DNA of 49,928 nt from the NCBI GenBank assembly GCA_026706635.1, contig JAPOYJ010000043.1:1-49928 (forward strand), written 5' to 3'. Made by a program: the position numbers and the translations under genes. This DNA is from Gemmatimonadota bacterium (lineage in GTDB: Bacteria; Gemmatimonadota; Gemmatimonadetes; Longimicrobiales; Gaopeijiaceae). Shown here one piece after another: positions 5,578-44,281 of this stretch; position 1 is the stretch's first letter, and each line of letters begins with the position of its first letter. The notes beneath the pieces are model-generated. The model saw nothing but the letters and a program-made list of their open reading frames with translations. It was not told where the DNA came from and did not search any database.

Positions 5578-5650
5578 CGGGTCGAGCTCTTGGGATTCGG
5601 ATCGTGTGCACGCGGACCGCAAGTTAGACGCTCTGCATCGCTAGCGCCAA

Positions 5651-6271
5651 GTGACCGACGCGCCGCCCCCGCGAGCCTGGCAAGCGGCAGCGCCCGTCAA
5701 CTTCCATGTACCCGAGAGGAGCCTGCCCGTTCCAGACCGTTTCGACGCAGTGCCCGAGCACGACAGACGCGCCCTTCGGAAAAAGCTCGCGGAGTTGCCC
5801 GCCAAAGCCGGAACGGGACTCGCCAAGCTTGGAGCGGGAGCCGCCGTGCCCCCTCGCAAGGTGTGCCGGGTGCTGCGGCGAGGTATCGGCCACCACAGCG
5901 GCACGTCCTTTCGGAAGAAGCTCGCGGAGTTGGCCGCCAAGGTCGGCCCAGGAGCCGTCAAGCTAGGAGCGGGAGCTGCCAAAGCCGGAAAGGGGATCGT
6001 GCGCCGCGCCCTGGTGCTGTACCACTGTCTCCAGGACCCCGACACACCCGCTTGGGCGCGCAAGATCATCATGGGTGCGTTGGCCTACTTGGTCCTTCCG
6101 GTCGATGCGGTGCCGGATTTCCTGCCGGTGGTGGGGCAAGTGGACGACCTCGCGGTGCTGGCAGCGGCGTTCGCGATAGTGCTCGTGCACATCAAGCCGG
6201 AGCACAGGCGCGCGGCAGAGGAGAAGATGGAGGAGTGGTTCGGAGCGGAAGAGAGTGTGTCCGACGAGTGA
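5651..6271 (+). CDS. DUF1232 (YkvA-type) membrane protein with N-terminal repeats
   Basis: A 206-residue protein. The C-terminal half is a DUF1232/YkvA domain: a WARKIIMGALAYL helix, the signature PVDAVPDFLPVVGQVDD and a following hydrophobic helix. The N-terminal half holds two copies of a ~35-residue Ala/Gly/Lys-rich repeat (RKKLAELPAKAG and RKKLAELAAKVG, each followed by KLGAGAA). No function is established for DUF1232; it is generally a small membrane-associated module. The GTG at 5651 is uncertain, because no ATG exists before the domain core and no strong ribosome site is seen. A closely similar second copy is at 7343-7743. Confidence 0.7.
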   Translation: MTDAPPPRAWQAAAPVNFHVPERSLPVPDRFDAVPEHDRRALRKKLAELPAKAGTGLAKLGAGAAVPPRKVCRVLRRGIGHHSGTSFRKKLAELAAKVGPGAVKLGAGAAKAGKGIVRRALVLYHCLQDPDTPAWARKIIMGALAYLVLPVDAVPDFLPVVGQVDDLAVLAAAFAIVLVHIKPEHRRAAEEKMEEWFGAEESVSDE

Positions 6272-6305
6272 TGACGTCCCTCGCCCCCCCCTGGCCGGGT
6301 CCCCG

Positions 6306-6457
6306 GCAGTCCGTGGATAATCTCCGGTCCCACGCTTTCCCGCCCGGCACCATCGGCACCAGCACATCCGCCGCACGGTCTCCTCCCCGGCCAGCGCCTT
6401 TCCGGCGGGCCCCTCGTCGCGCTCGGTGCCCGGGGGGCGCTATCCGCTGACCGCTAG
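6306..6457. mobile_element. CTAG-type MITE-like element, coreless and diverged
   Basis: The left end is GCAGTCCGTGGATAATCTC at 6306. The right end is TATCCGCTGACCGCTAG, finishing at CTAG 6454-6457. The interior keeps the GCTCGGTGCC segment of the right arm but has no twin palindrome. The CTAG supplies the TAG stop of the minus-strand lipoprotein gene. Confidence 0.6.
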
Positions 6458-6894
6458 CGCCGGCCTCTCTCCTCGCGCTCCTCGCGTTTCCGTTCGCGCA
6501 ATGCCCTGAACAGTTTCTCGATCTCCCGTCGGAAAATCTCGCACGCCTCCTCCATCGTGATGCGTCCGGATTCGACCGCGGCAAGAAGACGCGCCTTGGT
6601 TCCGGCGATCGCTGCACTCACGCGCCGGGCCTCTTCCCGGGTGATGGTTCCGCGCCGTACCCCTTCGCGGAGGCGCCTGTTGGCCGCGGCTTGGATGTCG
6701 TCCAGCGGGTTGTGGTCGATGGCGTCGTGGGCCTCCTGGAGGGCGAGCTGCAACGCCTCGACGTCCACCAGTTCCTCCTCGCGTTCGGGTTCGGCCGGGT
6801 CCGAATTGCAGGACGCGACACCAAGAGACAGAATGGCCAGGGCCCCGCAGGACAGGACGGTCCGGAACCGGCGCGGGATGGTGGAAGTGGTCAT
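6454..6894 (-). CDS. Predicted lipoprotein with GxIT-EEA helical motifs
   Basis: A 146-residue protein with a lipoprotein signal peptide (basic RRFR, hydrophobic core, lipobox VASC) and then an acidic segment (EPEREEELVDVE). The rest is charged and helical. It contains two related motifs, RRGTITREEARR and ESGRITMEEACEIFRR, and ends in an Arg/Glu-rich tail. ATG at 6894 is supported by AAGGAGAT just upstream on the coding strand. The function is unknown; it should be anchored on the periplasmic side. The second motif resembles one in the export adaptor at 20334-21914. Its stop lies in the CTAG at the end of a MITE-like element. Confidence 0.7.
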   Translation of the reverse strand: MTTSTIPRRFRTVLSCGALAILSLGVASCNSDPAEPEREEELVDVEALQLALQEAHDAIDHNPLDDIQAAANRRLREGVRRGTITREEARRVSAAIAGTKARLLAAVESGRITMEEACEIFRREIEKLFRALRERKREEREERGRR

Positions 6895-7117
6895 CGGCGG
6901 ATCTCCTTTCGGAACTGGCGCGCAGCGCCGTGCGGTCGCGGGCGAAGTGCTCATGGCCTGGGCAGGCCTACTGCGGGGAGTTGGGCTGCCCACCTAAGAC
7001 GAGCCCCTCACCCGCCTGTGCGCAAGGTCATGGGGAGAAACGGTTCTGGGGACGAGATGTCATTTCGCCCGAATACGGACGCAGATCGTGAGCGTCCAGC
7101 CCGGACGCGCCCCCCGG

Positions 7118-7272
7118 ACAGATCGAAAAGGACCTCATGGCGCTCTTCTGCGGCGCGCGTGGACAATGCTCTCGTCCATGCTGATCTTTCACGGCTGACA
7201 GGTTTGCAAAGCCCGGGGCCCGCGCTGCAACCGATGCGCGGTCTTCCACCTGTGCCGCTCGCGCACCCTCTG
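7118..7272 (+). pseudogene. Second nth 3'-end fragment, frameshifted with internal stop
   Basis: One frame reads QIEKDLMALF, matching KIERELMEIF of intact Nth. After a frame change it continues WTMLSSMLIFHG, a TGA stop, then QVCKARGPRCNRCAVFHLC, which matches the iron-sulfur loop with its C-X6-C-X2-C-X5-C spacing kept. It is a dead copy of the last ~55 codons of nth. It is followed within a few bases by an HD-gene fragment, the same neighbour order as at 673-1415. Confidence 0.75.
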
Positions 7273-7274
7273 AG

Positions 7275-7342
7275 GGCATGCGGGCGGTGGCGGATGTGCT
7301 GGAGGTCAGTGGGGAGGATCAGGCGAGACGGCGGGGCGAGAA
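7275..7342 (+). pseudogene. HD-hydrolase gene 3' fragment
   Basis: The translation MRAVADVLEVSGEDQARRRGEK matches the C-terminal end of the HD protein that stops at 1415 (LRTVADVLEVRGVDQARRREGR). The frame then runs directly into the N-terminal repeat of a DUF1232 gene. The piece is therefore a recombination scar joining two genes found separately elsewhere in the window. Confidence 0.7.
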
Positions 7343-7743
7343 GCCGGTCGCCGGAAAGCTCGAGGAGTTGGCCGCCAAGGCACGAACGAAACTCGGCAGG
7401 GTTGTAGCGGGGGCCGCCGTGCCGCTTGGCAAGTTGCAAGAGGGTCTTGTGCATGGCCCTCGTGCTGTACTACTGCCTCAAGGACCCCGACACTCCCCTT
7501 TGGGCGCGCAGGATCATCATGGGTGCGTTGGGCTACCTGATCCTTCCGGTCGATGCGGTGCCGGATTTTCTGCCGCTGGTGGGGCTCACGGACGACCTCG
7601 CGGTGCTGGCAGCGGCGGTTGCAATAGTCCTCGTGCACATCAATCCGGAACACAAGCGTGCGGCAAAGGAGAAGATGGAGGAACTCGGAGTTGGATCGGA
7701 CGTGTGCGGCAAAGTGATTCTACCGCATGCCGATGAACCGTGA
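7343..7743 (+). pseudogene. Second DUF1232 copy, frameshifted near its N-terminus
   Basis: The first part (KLEELAAKARTKLG then VVAGAAVPLGKL) is the same repeat found at the N-terminus of the 5651-6271 protein. Between about 7435 and 7455 the frame changes, and from 7426 a second frame gives an intact 105-residue reading containing the DUF1232 signature PVDAVPDFLPLVGLTDD. DNA identity to the first copy is visibly high over about 230 bases. The 7426-7743 frame (ATG at 7426) could still make a minimal DUF1232 protein. The longer form seen in the first copy is broken. Confidence 0.6.
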
Positions 7744-8046
7744 TGGAGGATGTCGCTATGACCCGGTGTGGGTGCTACCCTTGGCCTTCGCGGCGGCGGC
7801 GCTCCTCGTGCCCACGCAATCCCTTTGGAGAGGCGCACGATCTCTGCGGGGAAGCGGGCGAGAGCCTCCTCCCCCCGCCTTGCCCCTCCGCTCCCGTTTC
7901 AGCACCTTAGCGCGGCCACGGCAGCCGACGCCGATAGGGGGTCCCGGACGCCGGGCCAGTCGCCCCCGACCCGGTTCTCGCGACCGAGCCCCCTCGTCCG
8001 CAGCGCCGCCTGGACACCCACCGCCCAAACGGAACGGAGCCGCCCC
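7744..8046. other. 303-bp gap with no recognised feature
   Basis: GC-rich sequence between the DUF1232 copy and a short membrane-peptide frame. Frames exist, but their translations are Arg/Pro/Ser-rich with no domain. No terminator or element end is clear. Confidence 0.4.
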
Positions 8047-8160
8047 GTGACCACCGCAACCTGGATCACCATGATCGCTGTCATGGCCTTCGTGTGGGGA
8101 GGCCTCGCGACGGCGCTGCGCGCCGCGATCCGGAAGGAATCCGCCAAGGGCGCCAGCTAG
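8047..8160 (+). CDS. Possible 37-residue single-pass membrane peptide (MetS-like)
   Basis: GTG at 8047, with a weak AACGGAG upstream, opens a 37-residue frame. It has one hydrophobic helix (ITMIAVMAFVWGGLATALRA) and a basic tail (RKESAKG). The WGG within the helix resembles the small subunits that accompany methionine/alanine sodium symporters. No transporter large subunit is nearby, so the assignment is tentative and the frame could be fortuitous. Confidence 0.35.
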   Translation: MTTATWITMIAVMAFVWGGLATALRAAIRKESAKGAS

Positions 8161-8234
8161 CACGTGGAGAGAGTCCCCACGGCAGTCGAGCGAGGTGCCA
8201 TCCGCGCCGCGCCGCTCTGCTCAGTTGGCTACAA

Positions 8235-8273
8235 TGTAAACTTTGATTTACGTAATGTAAAGTGCAGTTTACA
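8235..8273. promoter_or_regulatory. Twin-palindrome site immediately upstream of carB
   Basis: Unit 1 (8235-8252) is TGTAA-N8-TTACG and unit 2 (8256-8273) is TGTAA-N8-TTACA, separated by TAA. The geometry is the same as in the mobile cores, but the N8 segments differ and no element ends are recognisable. A -10-like TACAAT lies at 8230-8235, and the carB start codon is 11 bases downstream of the site. A protein bound here would cover the transcription start and ribosome-binding region. Confidence 0.65.
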
Positions 8274-8284
8274 TCAGACTTGCC

Positions 8285-11200
8285 TTGCCTAGACGCGAAG
8301 ACATCGAGTCAATCCTGATTCCCGGATCGGGTCCTATCGTGATCGGGCAGGCCTGCGAGTTCGACTATTCCGGCACCCAGGCCGTGCGCGCGCTCAAGGA
8401 GGAGGGCTACCGGGTCGTCCTCGTCAACTCCAACCCAGCGACGATCATGACGGATCCAGACGTCGCCGATCGCACCTACGTCGAGCCGCTCGCGCCCGAG
8501 TGGATCGAGAGGGTGATCGAGCGGGAGGAGCCGGACGCCCTGCTCCCGACCATGGGGGGGCAGACGGCGCTCAACATCGCGATGGAGCTCGACCGGACGG
8601 GGGTGCTGGAAAGGCACGGAGTCGAACTGATTGGTGCCGACCAGCGGTCGATCCAGATGGCCGAAAACCGAGAGCGCTTCGCGGCCGCCATGGACCGGAT
8701 CGGGCTTGCGGTTCCGCACGGGGGCTTCGCCCGCACGCTGGACGACGCGCTTGCGATCATCGATGACACCGGCTACCCGGCGATCATTCGGCCCTCCTAC
8801 ACCCTCGGGGGAACCGGGGGCGGCACGGCGTACAACCTGGCCGAGTTCGAGCGCCAGGTGCGCAAGGGCCTGGAGGCGAGCCCGATAGGCGAGGTGCTCG
8901 TCGACCGATCGGTGATCGGGTGGAAGGAGTACGAGCTCGAGGTGGTGCGCGACGGCATCGACAACGTGATCGTGGTCTGTTCGATCGAGAACTTCGACCC
9001 CATGGGGGTCCACACCGGCGACTCGATCACGGTGGCGCCGGCGCAGACGCTCTCGGACGTGGAGTACCAGCGCATGCGCGACGCCGCGATCGCGATCATC
9101 CGCGAGATCGGAGTCGAGGCGGGGGGCTGCAATATCCAATTTGCCGTCAACCCCGCCGACGGCGAGATGCTCGTCGTCGAGATGAACCCGCGCGTCTCGC
9201 GCTCGTCGGCGCTGGCCTCCAAGGCGACCGGCTTCCCGATTGCTCGCGTAGGGGCCAAGCTCGCGGTCGGCTACAGGCTGCATGAGCTCCCCAACGACAT
9301 CACGCGTACGACTCCGGCCTCCTTCGAACCCGCGCTCGACTACGTGGTGGTCAAGTTCCCGCGCTTCGCCTTCGAGAAGTTCCCGGCCGCCGACGACACC
9401 CTCGGCGTGCAGATGAAGGCGGTGGGCGAGACGATGGCGATCGGCCGCACCTTCCGCTCGGCGTGGCAGAAGGGCCTGCGCGGCCTTGAGGTGGGTCGGC
9501 CAGGTTGGTTGAGCGCGGCCAGTCCCGCTGAAGACGGTCTACCACAGGACATCCTCGAGGGCGGCGACGAGGAGGCGATTCTCGCAGCGGTGCGGCGTCC
9601 CACCACGACGCGCAAGTACCAGCTGAAGCGTGCGCTCGAGGCCGGTATATCGATAGACCGCCTGCACGCGGCGACCGGTATCGACCCGTGGTTCCTCGAC
9701 CAGCTGCTGCAGATCATCGAGAACGAACGCTGGTTTGCGGAGCTGCCGTCGATCGATGCCGACTCGCTGCGTCAGATGAAGCGCGAGGGCTTCAGCGACG
9801 CCCAGCTTGGCCTCCTCCGTGGAGTTGACGAAGCCGCCATCCGGTTGCGGCGCTGGGAGCTCGGAGTGCGGCCCACCTTCAACGTCGTGGACACCTGTGC
9901 CGGGGAGTTTCCGGCCGAGACGCCCTACTACTACTCGTCGTACGAGTCGGAGGACGAGGTCCGCCCGTCGGAGGGACGGAAGGTGGTCATCCTGGGTAGC
10001 GGCCCCAATCGAATCGGGCAGGGGATCGAGTTCGACTACTGCTGCGTGCAGGCCGTCATGGCGCTCCGCGAGGCGGGCTACGAGACGGTGATGATCAACT
10101 CGAACCCGGAAACGGTGTCGACCGACTTCGACGTGAGCGACCAGCTCTACTTCGAGCCACTCACCCTGGAGGACGTGGCCGAGGTCGTCGGGCGCACTCG
10201 CCCGGAGGGGGTGATCGTGCAGCTCGGCGGGCAGACGCCCCTCAACCTGGCACGGGGACTCGACGAGCTGGGCATTCCGATCCTGGGCACCTCGGTGGAC
10301 GCGATCGATCAGGCCGAGGACAGGAGGCGCTTCGAGGCGGTCTGCCGGCGGGTCGGGGCCCTGGCTCCGGAGAGCGGGACCGCCACGAGCGAGGACGAGG
10401 CGCTCGCGATCGCGCGCTCCATCGGCTTCCCGGTGCTGGTGCGGCCATCGTACGTACTGGGTGGACGCGCCATGGAGATCGTCTACGACGAGGCGTCGCT
10501 CAAGAGCTACTTCGCCCGCGCGGTCAGGGCGTCGCCGGACCACCCGGTCCTGGTCGACCGCTTCCTGGAGGACGCCTTCGAGGCGGATGTGGACGCCCTC
10601 TCCGATGGCGAGGAGGTCCTGATCGGAGGGATCATGCAGCATATCGAGGACGCGGGTGTGCACTCGGGCGACTCGGCGTGCGTCCTGCCCCCCTACCTGC
10701 TCGGGCGCGAGGAGCTGGACGAGATGAGGAGCCTCACGCGACGTTTCGCTCTGGAGCTGGGCGTGGTGGGCCTGCTGAACGTCCAGTTCGCCGTGAAGGA
10801 CGGACAGGTCTACGTCCTCGAGGTGAACCCGCGGGCGTCGCGCACGGTCCCCTTCGTGAGCAAGGCGACCGGCGTGCCGCTCGCCCGCATCGCCGCCCGG
10901 GTGATGGTCGGAGAGCGCCTCGCCGAGCTCGTCGAGCGCGAGATCGGCCCCACGGCGCTGGAGGCGGGAGAGCCCGAGGTGCAGGGTGTGGCCGTCAAGG
11001 AGGCGGTCTTCCCCTTCAACCGCTTCGACGTGGACACCTTGCTGGGTCCCGAGATGCGCTCCACCGGCGAGGCGATGGGCGTGGACGACTCCCTCGGAAT
11101 GGCCTTCGCGAAGGCGCAGGTCTCGGCTGGCAATCGGCTGCCCGAGGGCGAGGACGGCCTCTCGGTTATCGTGACCGTCAACGACCGCGACAAGCCGACG

Positions 11201-11566
11201 GTGACCCCCCTGGTGCGGCGTCTGGTCGATCTGGGCTTTGCGGTCCACGCCACGGGAGGCACCCGCAGACACTTCGAGCAGCTGGGGATACCGTGCCGGT
11301 CCATCTACAAGGTCGGCCAGGGGAGGCCGCACATCGTGGACCGGATCGTGAGCGGACAGGTGTCGCTCCTGATCAACACACCGCTCGGCAAGAAGTCGCA
11401 GTACGACGACTACGCGATGCGCCGGGCCGCGATCGCCCACGGGGTGCCCTACCTGACGACCATGTCGGCGACCCGCGCCGCGGTCGACGCCCTCACCGCC
11501 ATGCGCACGCGCCGTCCCGAGGTCCTGTCGATCCAGGAGCGGCTGGCCCGGTCGCGCCGGCCGTAG
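8285..11566 (+). CDS. carB: Carbamoyl-phosphate synthase large subunit
   Basis: A 1093-residue protein that makes carbamoyl phosphate from bicarbonate, ammonia (delivered by CarA) and two ATP, for arginine and pyrimidine synthesis. It contains two homologous synthetase halves: [15 protein letters not shown] near the start and [15 protein letters not shown] near residue 575. Each has an ATP-grasp domain. A C-terminal MGS-like regulatory domain ends in [18 protein letters not shown] at 8285 is chosen because the protein then begins [12 protein letters not shown], the normal family N-terminus. No Shine-Dalgarno is visible, and a twin-palindrome site sits just upstream. carA is not in the window. 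The HDAC-like gene starts 2 bp after its stop. Confidence 0.96.
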
Positions 11567-43781: not shown

Positions 43782-43869
43782 GACGGTCCCCTTTCGGATA
43801 GGTTATGGACCCCGCCGGTGCACCGCTGGCGAGCACGGGAGAGGCCGATGCCGGATCTCCGGTCGGCTC

Positions 43870-44119
43870 GCAGCCCGTGGACAAACCTCCCACGGCATTC
43901 GAGCGGCGCTGCATCTCCGCTGGGCCGCTTCGCTCGCTTATCCATACTGTAATCTATGCTTTACAATGTGTAATCCATGGTTTACAATGCCCGTACCCGG
44001 GGCTTCGCTCTGCGTTGCTCCTCGGACCAATAGCGCTGTGGCTATTGGCCCTTCGTCGCGCCTTGCCAGCGGAGCGCTTCGCCGCTCTCGGTGCTCGCGC
44101 GAGATTATCCACGGACTGC
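43870..44119. mobile_element. Longest MITE-like element, copy 8, upstream of rpsO
   Basis: A 250-bp element from GCAGCCCGTGGACAAACC to GATTATCCACGGACTGC. It contains every segment of the family: left arm (CCACGGCATTCGAGCGGCGC), core 43948-43986, GGCTTCGCTCTGCGTTGCTC, an 8-bp hairpin CCAATAGC/GCTATTGG at 44027-44048, and the right arm GCTCTCGGTGCTCGCGCGAG. It is the best reference copy in the window. Confidence 0.9.
43948..43986. repeat. 39-bp twin-palindrome core, copy 8
   Basis: Units at 43948-43965 and 43969-43986, both TGTAA-N8-TTACA, with spacer ATG. On the plus strand TTATCC, an 18-bp gap and TACAAT would also pass as a weak promoter reading toward rpsO. Confidence 0.9.
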
Positions 44120-44281
44120 CAAGCGTCACCGGACCACCCACGGTGCTCTGGAAGCTTGCCATTCGCCTTGTTCCGGTCAAGCTCATCCCGCCGAGCCGTC
44201 TTCCGGGGATTCCGGGAATGCCCTACCTTCCTTGAGCGTCAAAGACCGACGCAGACCGAACTGACGAACAGAGCCACACCC

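Follow-up and report, generated by a model that had tools for sequence, protein, structure and literature searches.

The REP/BIME sequences of enterobacteria are short, dispersed and paired palindromes that lie mostly behind genes or between convergent genes and are bound by host proteins. The Correia elements of Neisseria are MITEs that carry regulatory sites, among them IHF sites and promoters. ArgR is the classic repressor of carAB, and paired ARG boxes are found at carAB of Escherichia coli. In addition, the operators of the BlaI/MecI/CopY repressor family are known to have the form TACANNTGTA (PMC7253601), and a literature search for MITE-borne operators or for BlaI in Gemmatimonadota gave nothing relevant among the matches listed.

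We analysed a window of 49,928 nucleotides, meaning the whole stretch of DNA under study, in which the sequence TGTAAACTTTGATTTACGTAATGTAAAGTGCAGTTTACA occupies positions 8235-8273 before carB (Table 1). It follows the pattern TGTAA-N8-TTACG-N3-TGTAA-N8-TTACA and consists of two 18-bp palindromes, which together we call a twin. Direct reading of these positions agreed with the earlier note on this DNA in that three boxes are perfect and one carries a single change (TTACG, 1 change in 20 box bases) and that the spacers are 8, 3 and 8 bp long, and its statements that the N8 sequences are unlike those of the mobile cores, that the twin ends 11 bp before the TTG codon of carB and that no Shine-Dalgarno sequence is visible there also held. 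Like the twins collected genus-wide (TGTMA half-sites), the site has four half-sites with 8/3/8 spacing, and its one change is of a tolerated type. The window contains nine twins at three or fewer mismatches, compared with 0.00 expected from shuffles, and every palindrome TGTAA-N8-TTACA in it (at most one mismatch) is half of a twin. The small gene directly 5' of carB is a conserved arrangement in the genus, and the leader between twin and carB also measures 11 bp at the three orthologous sites described below, its sequence not being conserved.

Table 1. Coordinates in the window of the twin palindrome before carB, its neighbouring genes and the remnant of the element.
Feature	Position	Strand	Basis or remark
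Small gene upstream of carB, 39 aa, weak MetS-like PF16951 match	8041..8160	+	Pfam
Decayed left arm of mobile element, reference CTAGCAGCCCGTGGACAAACCTCCCACGGCATTCGAGCGGCGCTGCATC...GGACCGCTTCGCTCGCTTGTCCATAC	8154..8234	+	Alignment, arm profile
First palindrome TGTAA-ACTTTGAT-TTACG, one box change	8235..8252	.	Sequence
Inter-palindrome spacer TAA, 3 bp; palindrome centres 21 bp apart	8253..8255	.	Sequence
Second palindrome TGTAA-AGTGCAGT-TTACA, boxes perfect	8256..8273	.	Sequence
11-bp leader, twin to carB start	8274..8284	+	No element right arm, no Shine-Dalgarno
carB, carbamoyl-phosphate synthase large chain, TTG start at 8285	8285..11566	+	Pfam CPSase domains, aligned starts

When we compared the twin with the described systems, it resembled the ARG-box pair of E. 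coli carAB in that both place two 18-bp palindromes, separated by 3 bp, ahead of a gene for carbamoyl-phosphate synthase, but its half-site is TGTMA-N8, whereas that of the ARG box is TGAAT-N4. It shares its half-sites with the BlaI/MecI/CopY operators but differs from them by the inner spacing of 3 and the outer N8 palindromes, and it does not show the arrangement TACA-N2-TGTA at a repressor's own promoter. As with REP/BIME sequences, the twins are dispersed, paired and palindromic and lie mostly behind genes and between convergent genes. Unlike REP/BIME sequences, they are A+T-rich in a genome of 68% G+C, have 8/3/8 spacing with free spacers, are also carried inside a MITE and do not behave as hairpin-forming palindromes, the spacers showing no hairpin covariation. 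The likeness to Correia elements lies in a non-coding element with terminal inverted repeats that would spread a protein-binding site or promoter, and the differences lie in the putative twin dimer site with its genus-restricted motif, in the arm-free copies found genus-wide, and in cores that differ between the bursts of two genomes with their boxes unchanged.

According to the earlier note, no element arms are present at carB. Our alignments revealed a decayed left arm, and the right arm alone is missing. First, the local alignment of 8154-8234 with the element arm scored 55, compared with a maximum of 34 in 2000 shuffles, and 56 of 79 aligned bases (~71%) were identical. Second, an arm profile made from 27 other copies scored 18.8 bits, and the highest null score was 4.4. 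Third, the arm begins at the TAG stop of the small gene, which coincides with the left end of the element, matches the element end CTAGCAG and reaches the first box. Thus the left arm beginning with CTAGCAGCCCGTGGACA is present in decayed form, and the twin core stands directly 3' of it as in full copies, while no right arm ending with TCCACGGACTGCTAG was found 3' of this core, where carB starts 11 bp on. The carB site is an element copy missing its right end and not a complete member of the family. Because of the decayed arm, it is to be taken as an old element copy rather than an arm-free native operator. The proposal that a native operator at carB was the source of the mobile core is not supported on the same ground, and also because 17 of 21 genus members lack the site and two lineages have core-bearing copies of this element family. 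A left arm and core with a weak or absent right arm is a common form among the copies in the genome of the window (G000), and such a form is therefore not special to carB. A site in G012 (L035), between co-directional rpsB-like and tsf-like genes named by eye, also has a left arm and core and no right arm.

Full copies of the element are non-coding and MITE-like, measure ~180 bp without the core and ~253-256 bp with it, and have the ends CTAGCAGCCCGTGGACA and TCCACGGACTGCTAG. The core module is flanked by two copies of GCTTCGCTC, as if it had entered the element by an insertion of its own with a 9-bp duplication. Core-bearing and core-less copies differ by ~75 bp (G000 copies L230-L259, e.g., window 43867-44127). 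The G000 assembly (2.81 Mb, 86 contigs) contains ~140 exact twins and 256 at up to three mismatches, and at first look it held at least 350 left-arm candidates. Among young G000 copies found via their arms, there was no extra box conservation over arm decay. A separate burst of the same element family was found in a second genus member, G014, where the core occupies the corresponding internal position but has a different sequence, TGTAAAGTATACATTACACTATGTAATGTCTGCTATACA (copies L312-L329). Many of these G014 copies lie at contig ends, indicating that the assembly breaks on element copies.

We then read the carB leader across the genus, using 23 Gemmatimonadota/Longimicrobiales MAGs, in 21 of which the leader was readable. 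A twin at exactly -50 was present in four of these 21 (the window, G007, G018 and G021) and absent in 17, where we mostly found a left-end stub of the element, a core-less element or nothing. In G007, G018 and G021 the left arm is present and the right arm absent, as in the window. The site is absent even in close relatives of the carriers (G012 and G014), and its absence in 17 of 21 members indicates that the twin is not needed by carB. The check proposed in the earlier note, conservation of the boxes upstream of carB in close relatives, gave a mixed result, as three relatives keep the boxes at the identical place and the rest lack them. The TTG start of carB was seen in all genus members read, and its place is taken by GTG or ATG in other genera. 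G007, G018 and G021 fall within one supported clade of five, and G000 stands on a long branch. A single origin of the four carB sites, with G000 grouped with that clade, was not rejected (p-AU 0.239), and the sequence GCTCAGTTGGC just 5' of the core, common to the window and G018, points to one shared insertion.

The four carB sites were picked by their place and not by box quality, and among them 17 of 20 box columns are invariant compared with 6 of 19 spacer columns (Fisher p=0.001), with pairwise identities of 0.91 for the boxes and 0.58 for the spacers. Each site keeps 19 of 20 box bases, and the single changes (T1>C, T1>A, A4>C and A5>T) are all of types tolerated genus-wide; T1>C, the change in the window, was seen in 10 of 432 half-sites. 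Within single genomes, box survival over arm decay was modest (P 0.009, 0.014, 0.059 and 0.13) and weak in G018 and G021. We then examined mismatches in 108 distinct twins from 12 relatives, allowing them at any box position. Among the 432 half-sites, the changes per box base were 0 at G2, 11 at T3, 22 at A5, 37 at T1 and 45 at A4, and 38 of the 45 changes at A4 were A>C, a pattern that departs from even decay (p=5e-12). The half-site consensus, TGT[A/c]A[T/A][G/C][T/C], is alike at all four positions. Since plain decay is expected to strike G often and G2 was never changed, recognition of a protein type is suggested, and the invariance of G2 together with the preference for A4>C is, as judged from sequence, the signature of a DNA-reading protein and not of an RNA hairpin. 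Selection for binding rather than recent copying, as proposed in the earlier note, is supported both by this genus-wide pattern and by the boxes being kept at the four carB sites while spacers and arm decay.

A comparison of seven orthologous arm-free pairs gave box changes at 1 of 140 positions and spacer changes at 21 of 133, the box conservation here being partly built in because the pairs were found by box search. Changes were three times as frequent in the spacers as in the flanks of 60 bp (21/133 compared with 44/834, p=5e-5). In the orthologous twins of G002 and G006, 13 of 19 spacer bases differ and all 20 box bases are equal. In the pairs L029/L054, L028/L038 and L033/L042 the in-twin spacers diverge faster than the surrounding DNA, and the boxes stay. 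Flanks that are partly coding may explain some of this fast divergence, and exchange between copies is a possibility.

Twins elsewhere in the genus are mostly found without the element. In the relatives, 36 of 40 sites fetched have no detectable arms, and the twins lie mostly within ~100 bp behind a stop codon. Sites between convergent genes made up 20 of the 42 classified, compared with 16 convergent gaps among 72 (binomial p=2.5e-4); the gene calls come from a codon-usage model of our own, and the sites include orthologous ones, which are not independent. The 30 neighbour genes of twins encode enzymes, transporters and repeat proteins that are unrelated to one another, and none of them is a DNA-binding regulator; a common function of the flanking genes was rejected. 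Such convergent placement and unrelated neighbours are odd for operators. No exact twin was found in 17 genomes from other genera of this order, and a search of 84,980 genomes with a stricter form of the twin matched this genus and, in scattered single matches, unrelated genomes, mostly Bacteroidota.

Based on these observations, we suggest that the carB twin is, on balance, the core of an old element copy, a putative protein-binding site whose boxes have been kept before carB. The four boxes look like a putative binding site that recurs at dozens to hundreds of loci in the genus, mostly behind genes. A short MITE-like element would have inserted at the CTAG that contains the stop codon of the upstream gene and later have lost its right arm. 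Its core would be a predicted twin site made of four half-sites of the above consensus in two 18-bp palindromes, and since the palindrome centres are 21 bp, or two helical turns, apart, two dimers would be placed next to each other on the same face of the helix. In four species the boxes remain at exactly -50 to -12 relative to the TTG codon, while the spacers and the arm decayed. Occupancy of the site, which we infer together with an action on carB and the sign of its effect, would cover the region where carB transcription or translation begins, most likely hampering or insulating carB. As for the earlier suggestion of an old domesticated copy, the origin as an old copy was borne out, whereas domestication, in the sense of control of carB, can only be presumed, the sites genus-wide being mostly not at promoters.

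It is rather speculative that the twins form a genus-wide system, in which one abundant putative protein would occupy tens to hundreds of MITE-spread twins and the carB copy would be a point of control or insulation. In such a system, the sites behind genes or between convergent genes could serve as insulators, transcription roadblocks or chromosome organisers. The mobile element spreads a well-formed predicted protein-binding site by hundreds in one genome, and in one old copy, which stands before an essential gene of biosynthesis, the boxes have been kept while the rest of the element decays. With the cognate protein in hand, this genus of sponge-associated Gemmatimonadota could show directly how dispersed sites arise, move and persist, and also why so many of them sit behind genes.

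A real but clearly smaller chance is that the carB copy is a neutral fossil, left over passively from the element, in which the boxes survive by chance and do not affect carB. The absence of the site in 17 of 21 genus members, the weak box survival in G018 and G021, and the well over a hundred twin copies in G000, most of them presumably without a role, would suit such a remnant. However, the four genomes each retain 19 of 20 box bases with diverged spacers, at the Fisher probability given above, and all four box changes fall at positions tolerated genus-wide.

We consider it improbable that the core acts as a carB-proximal promoter, with TTTACA at box 2 as the -35, a gap of 17 bp and TACA(T/G)T at box 4 as the -10, which would give a nearly leaderless transcript and by which the element would have restored transcription after parting carB from the upstream gene. 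This geometry (TTTACR-N17-TACAnT) is present in G007, G018 and G021 (TACATT/TACAGT) and in the mobile cores (TTTACA-17-TACAAT), and in relatives that lack the insertion carB comes straight after the small gene. However, the + strand hexamers in the window, TTTACG and TACATC, are below threshold as a promoter, and the promoter-like match at this site is on the minus strand only (8261 to 8233). A leaderless TTG start would be unusual and counts against the promoter, and most arm-free twins are found behind genes, where a promoter would serve no purpose. The TACAAT at 8230-8235, described in the earlier note as -10-like, was rejected as a -10, since the orthologous sites read CACAAT, CACGAT and CGCGAT, no partner -35 accompanies it and no + strand promoter was found.

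The possibility that a BlaI/MecI-family repressor, together with an M56 (BlaR1-like) partner, uses the twin as its operator looked strong at first, and we now regard it as very unlikely. In one BlaI clade, 16 of 38 genes have a twin no more than 700 bp upstream, compared with 0 of 32 other BlaI genes (p=2e-5), one further match, L223, being the carB site of G018 itself; the BlaI genes associated with twins overlap M56 peptidase genes, and the TTACA/TGTAA half-sites of the known operators are those of the twin. This candidate fell when the blaI promoters were found to bear an inverted repeat of their own (e.g., CAAAAAACTAGTTGACAT...TTCAACTAGAGTTTTG), which is present even where there is no twin. 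The twin is located further upstream than this promoter repeat and often overlaps the stop codon at the end of the gene before it (right over the stop in one orthologous set), its inner spacing is 3 and that of BlaI operators 2, and BlaI genes of the same clade in other genera have no twin. In the BlaI clade with M56-TonB partners (L170, L166, L217, L174 and others), the conserved promoter repeat is ACTAGTTGACA...TCAACTAG or similar and distinct from the twin, and twins are far commoner upstream of these operons than upstream of other BlaI genes.

There is even less to be said for an RNA element, in which twin hairpins would act as a terminator or mRNA stabiliser at gene ends, as the placement of the palindromes behind genes and between convergent genes might suggest. 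This reading was rejected on the lack of covariation in the spacers, as 98 of 240 positions within the palindromes were paired compared with 106 expected, and a model of one long hairpin gave 127 paired compared with 118 (p 0.08) and no covariation. Moreover, the RNA stems would have only five A/U-rich pairs, and the carB site showed no T-run terminator.

Finally, despite the equal 18+3+18 geometry and carB being a classic target gene, the twin can hardly be a pair of ARG boxes bound by ArgR, which we rejected since ArgR (PF01316) had no match in G000 and was present in 22 of 22 relatives, the ArgR loci of these relatives have ordinary TGMAT-type ARG boxes and no twin, and the carB site lacks TGAAT-type boxes.

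No ArgR was found in G000 and only two BlaI genes, compared with one ArgR and 2-15 BlaI genes in its relatives; the genome is also smaller than theirs (2.8 Mb compared with 3.3-4.9 Mb), and its carB branch is long. The window contains other repeats as well. Four copies of a direct repeat of 126-144 bp run across an open frame at 42-580 and are 65-82% identical to the reference copy. Two open frames at 5590-7743 without a Pfam match share a stretch of 245 bp (5990-6234 and 7438-7682) that is 87% identical, together with shorter repeats.
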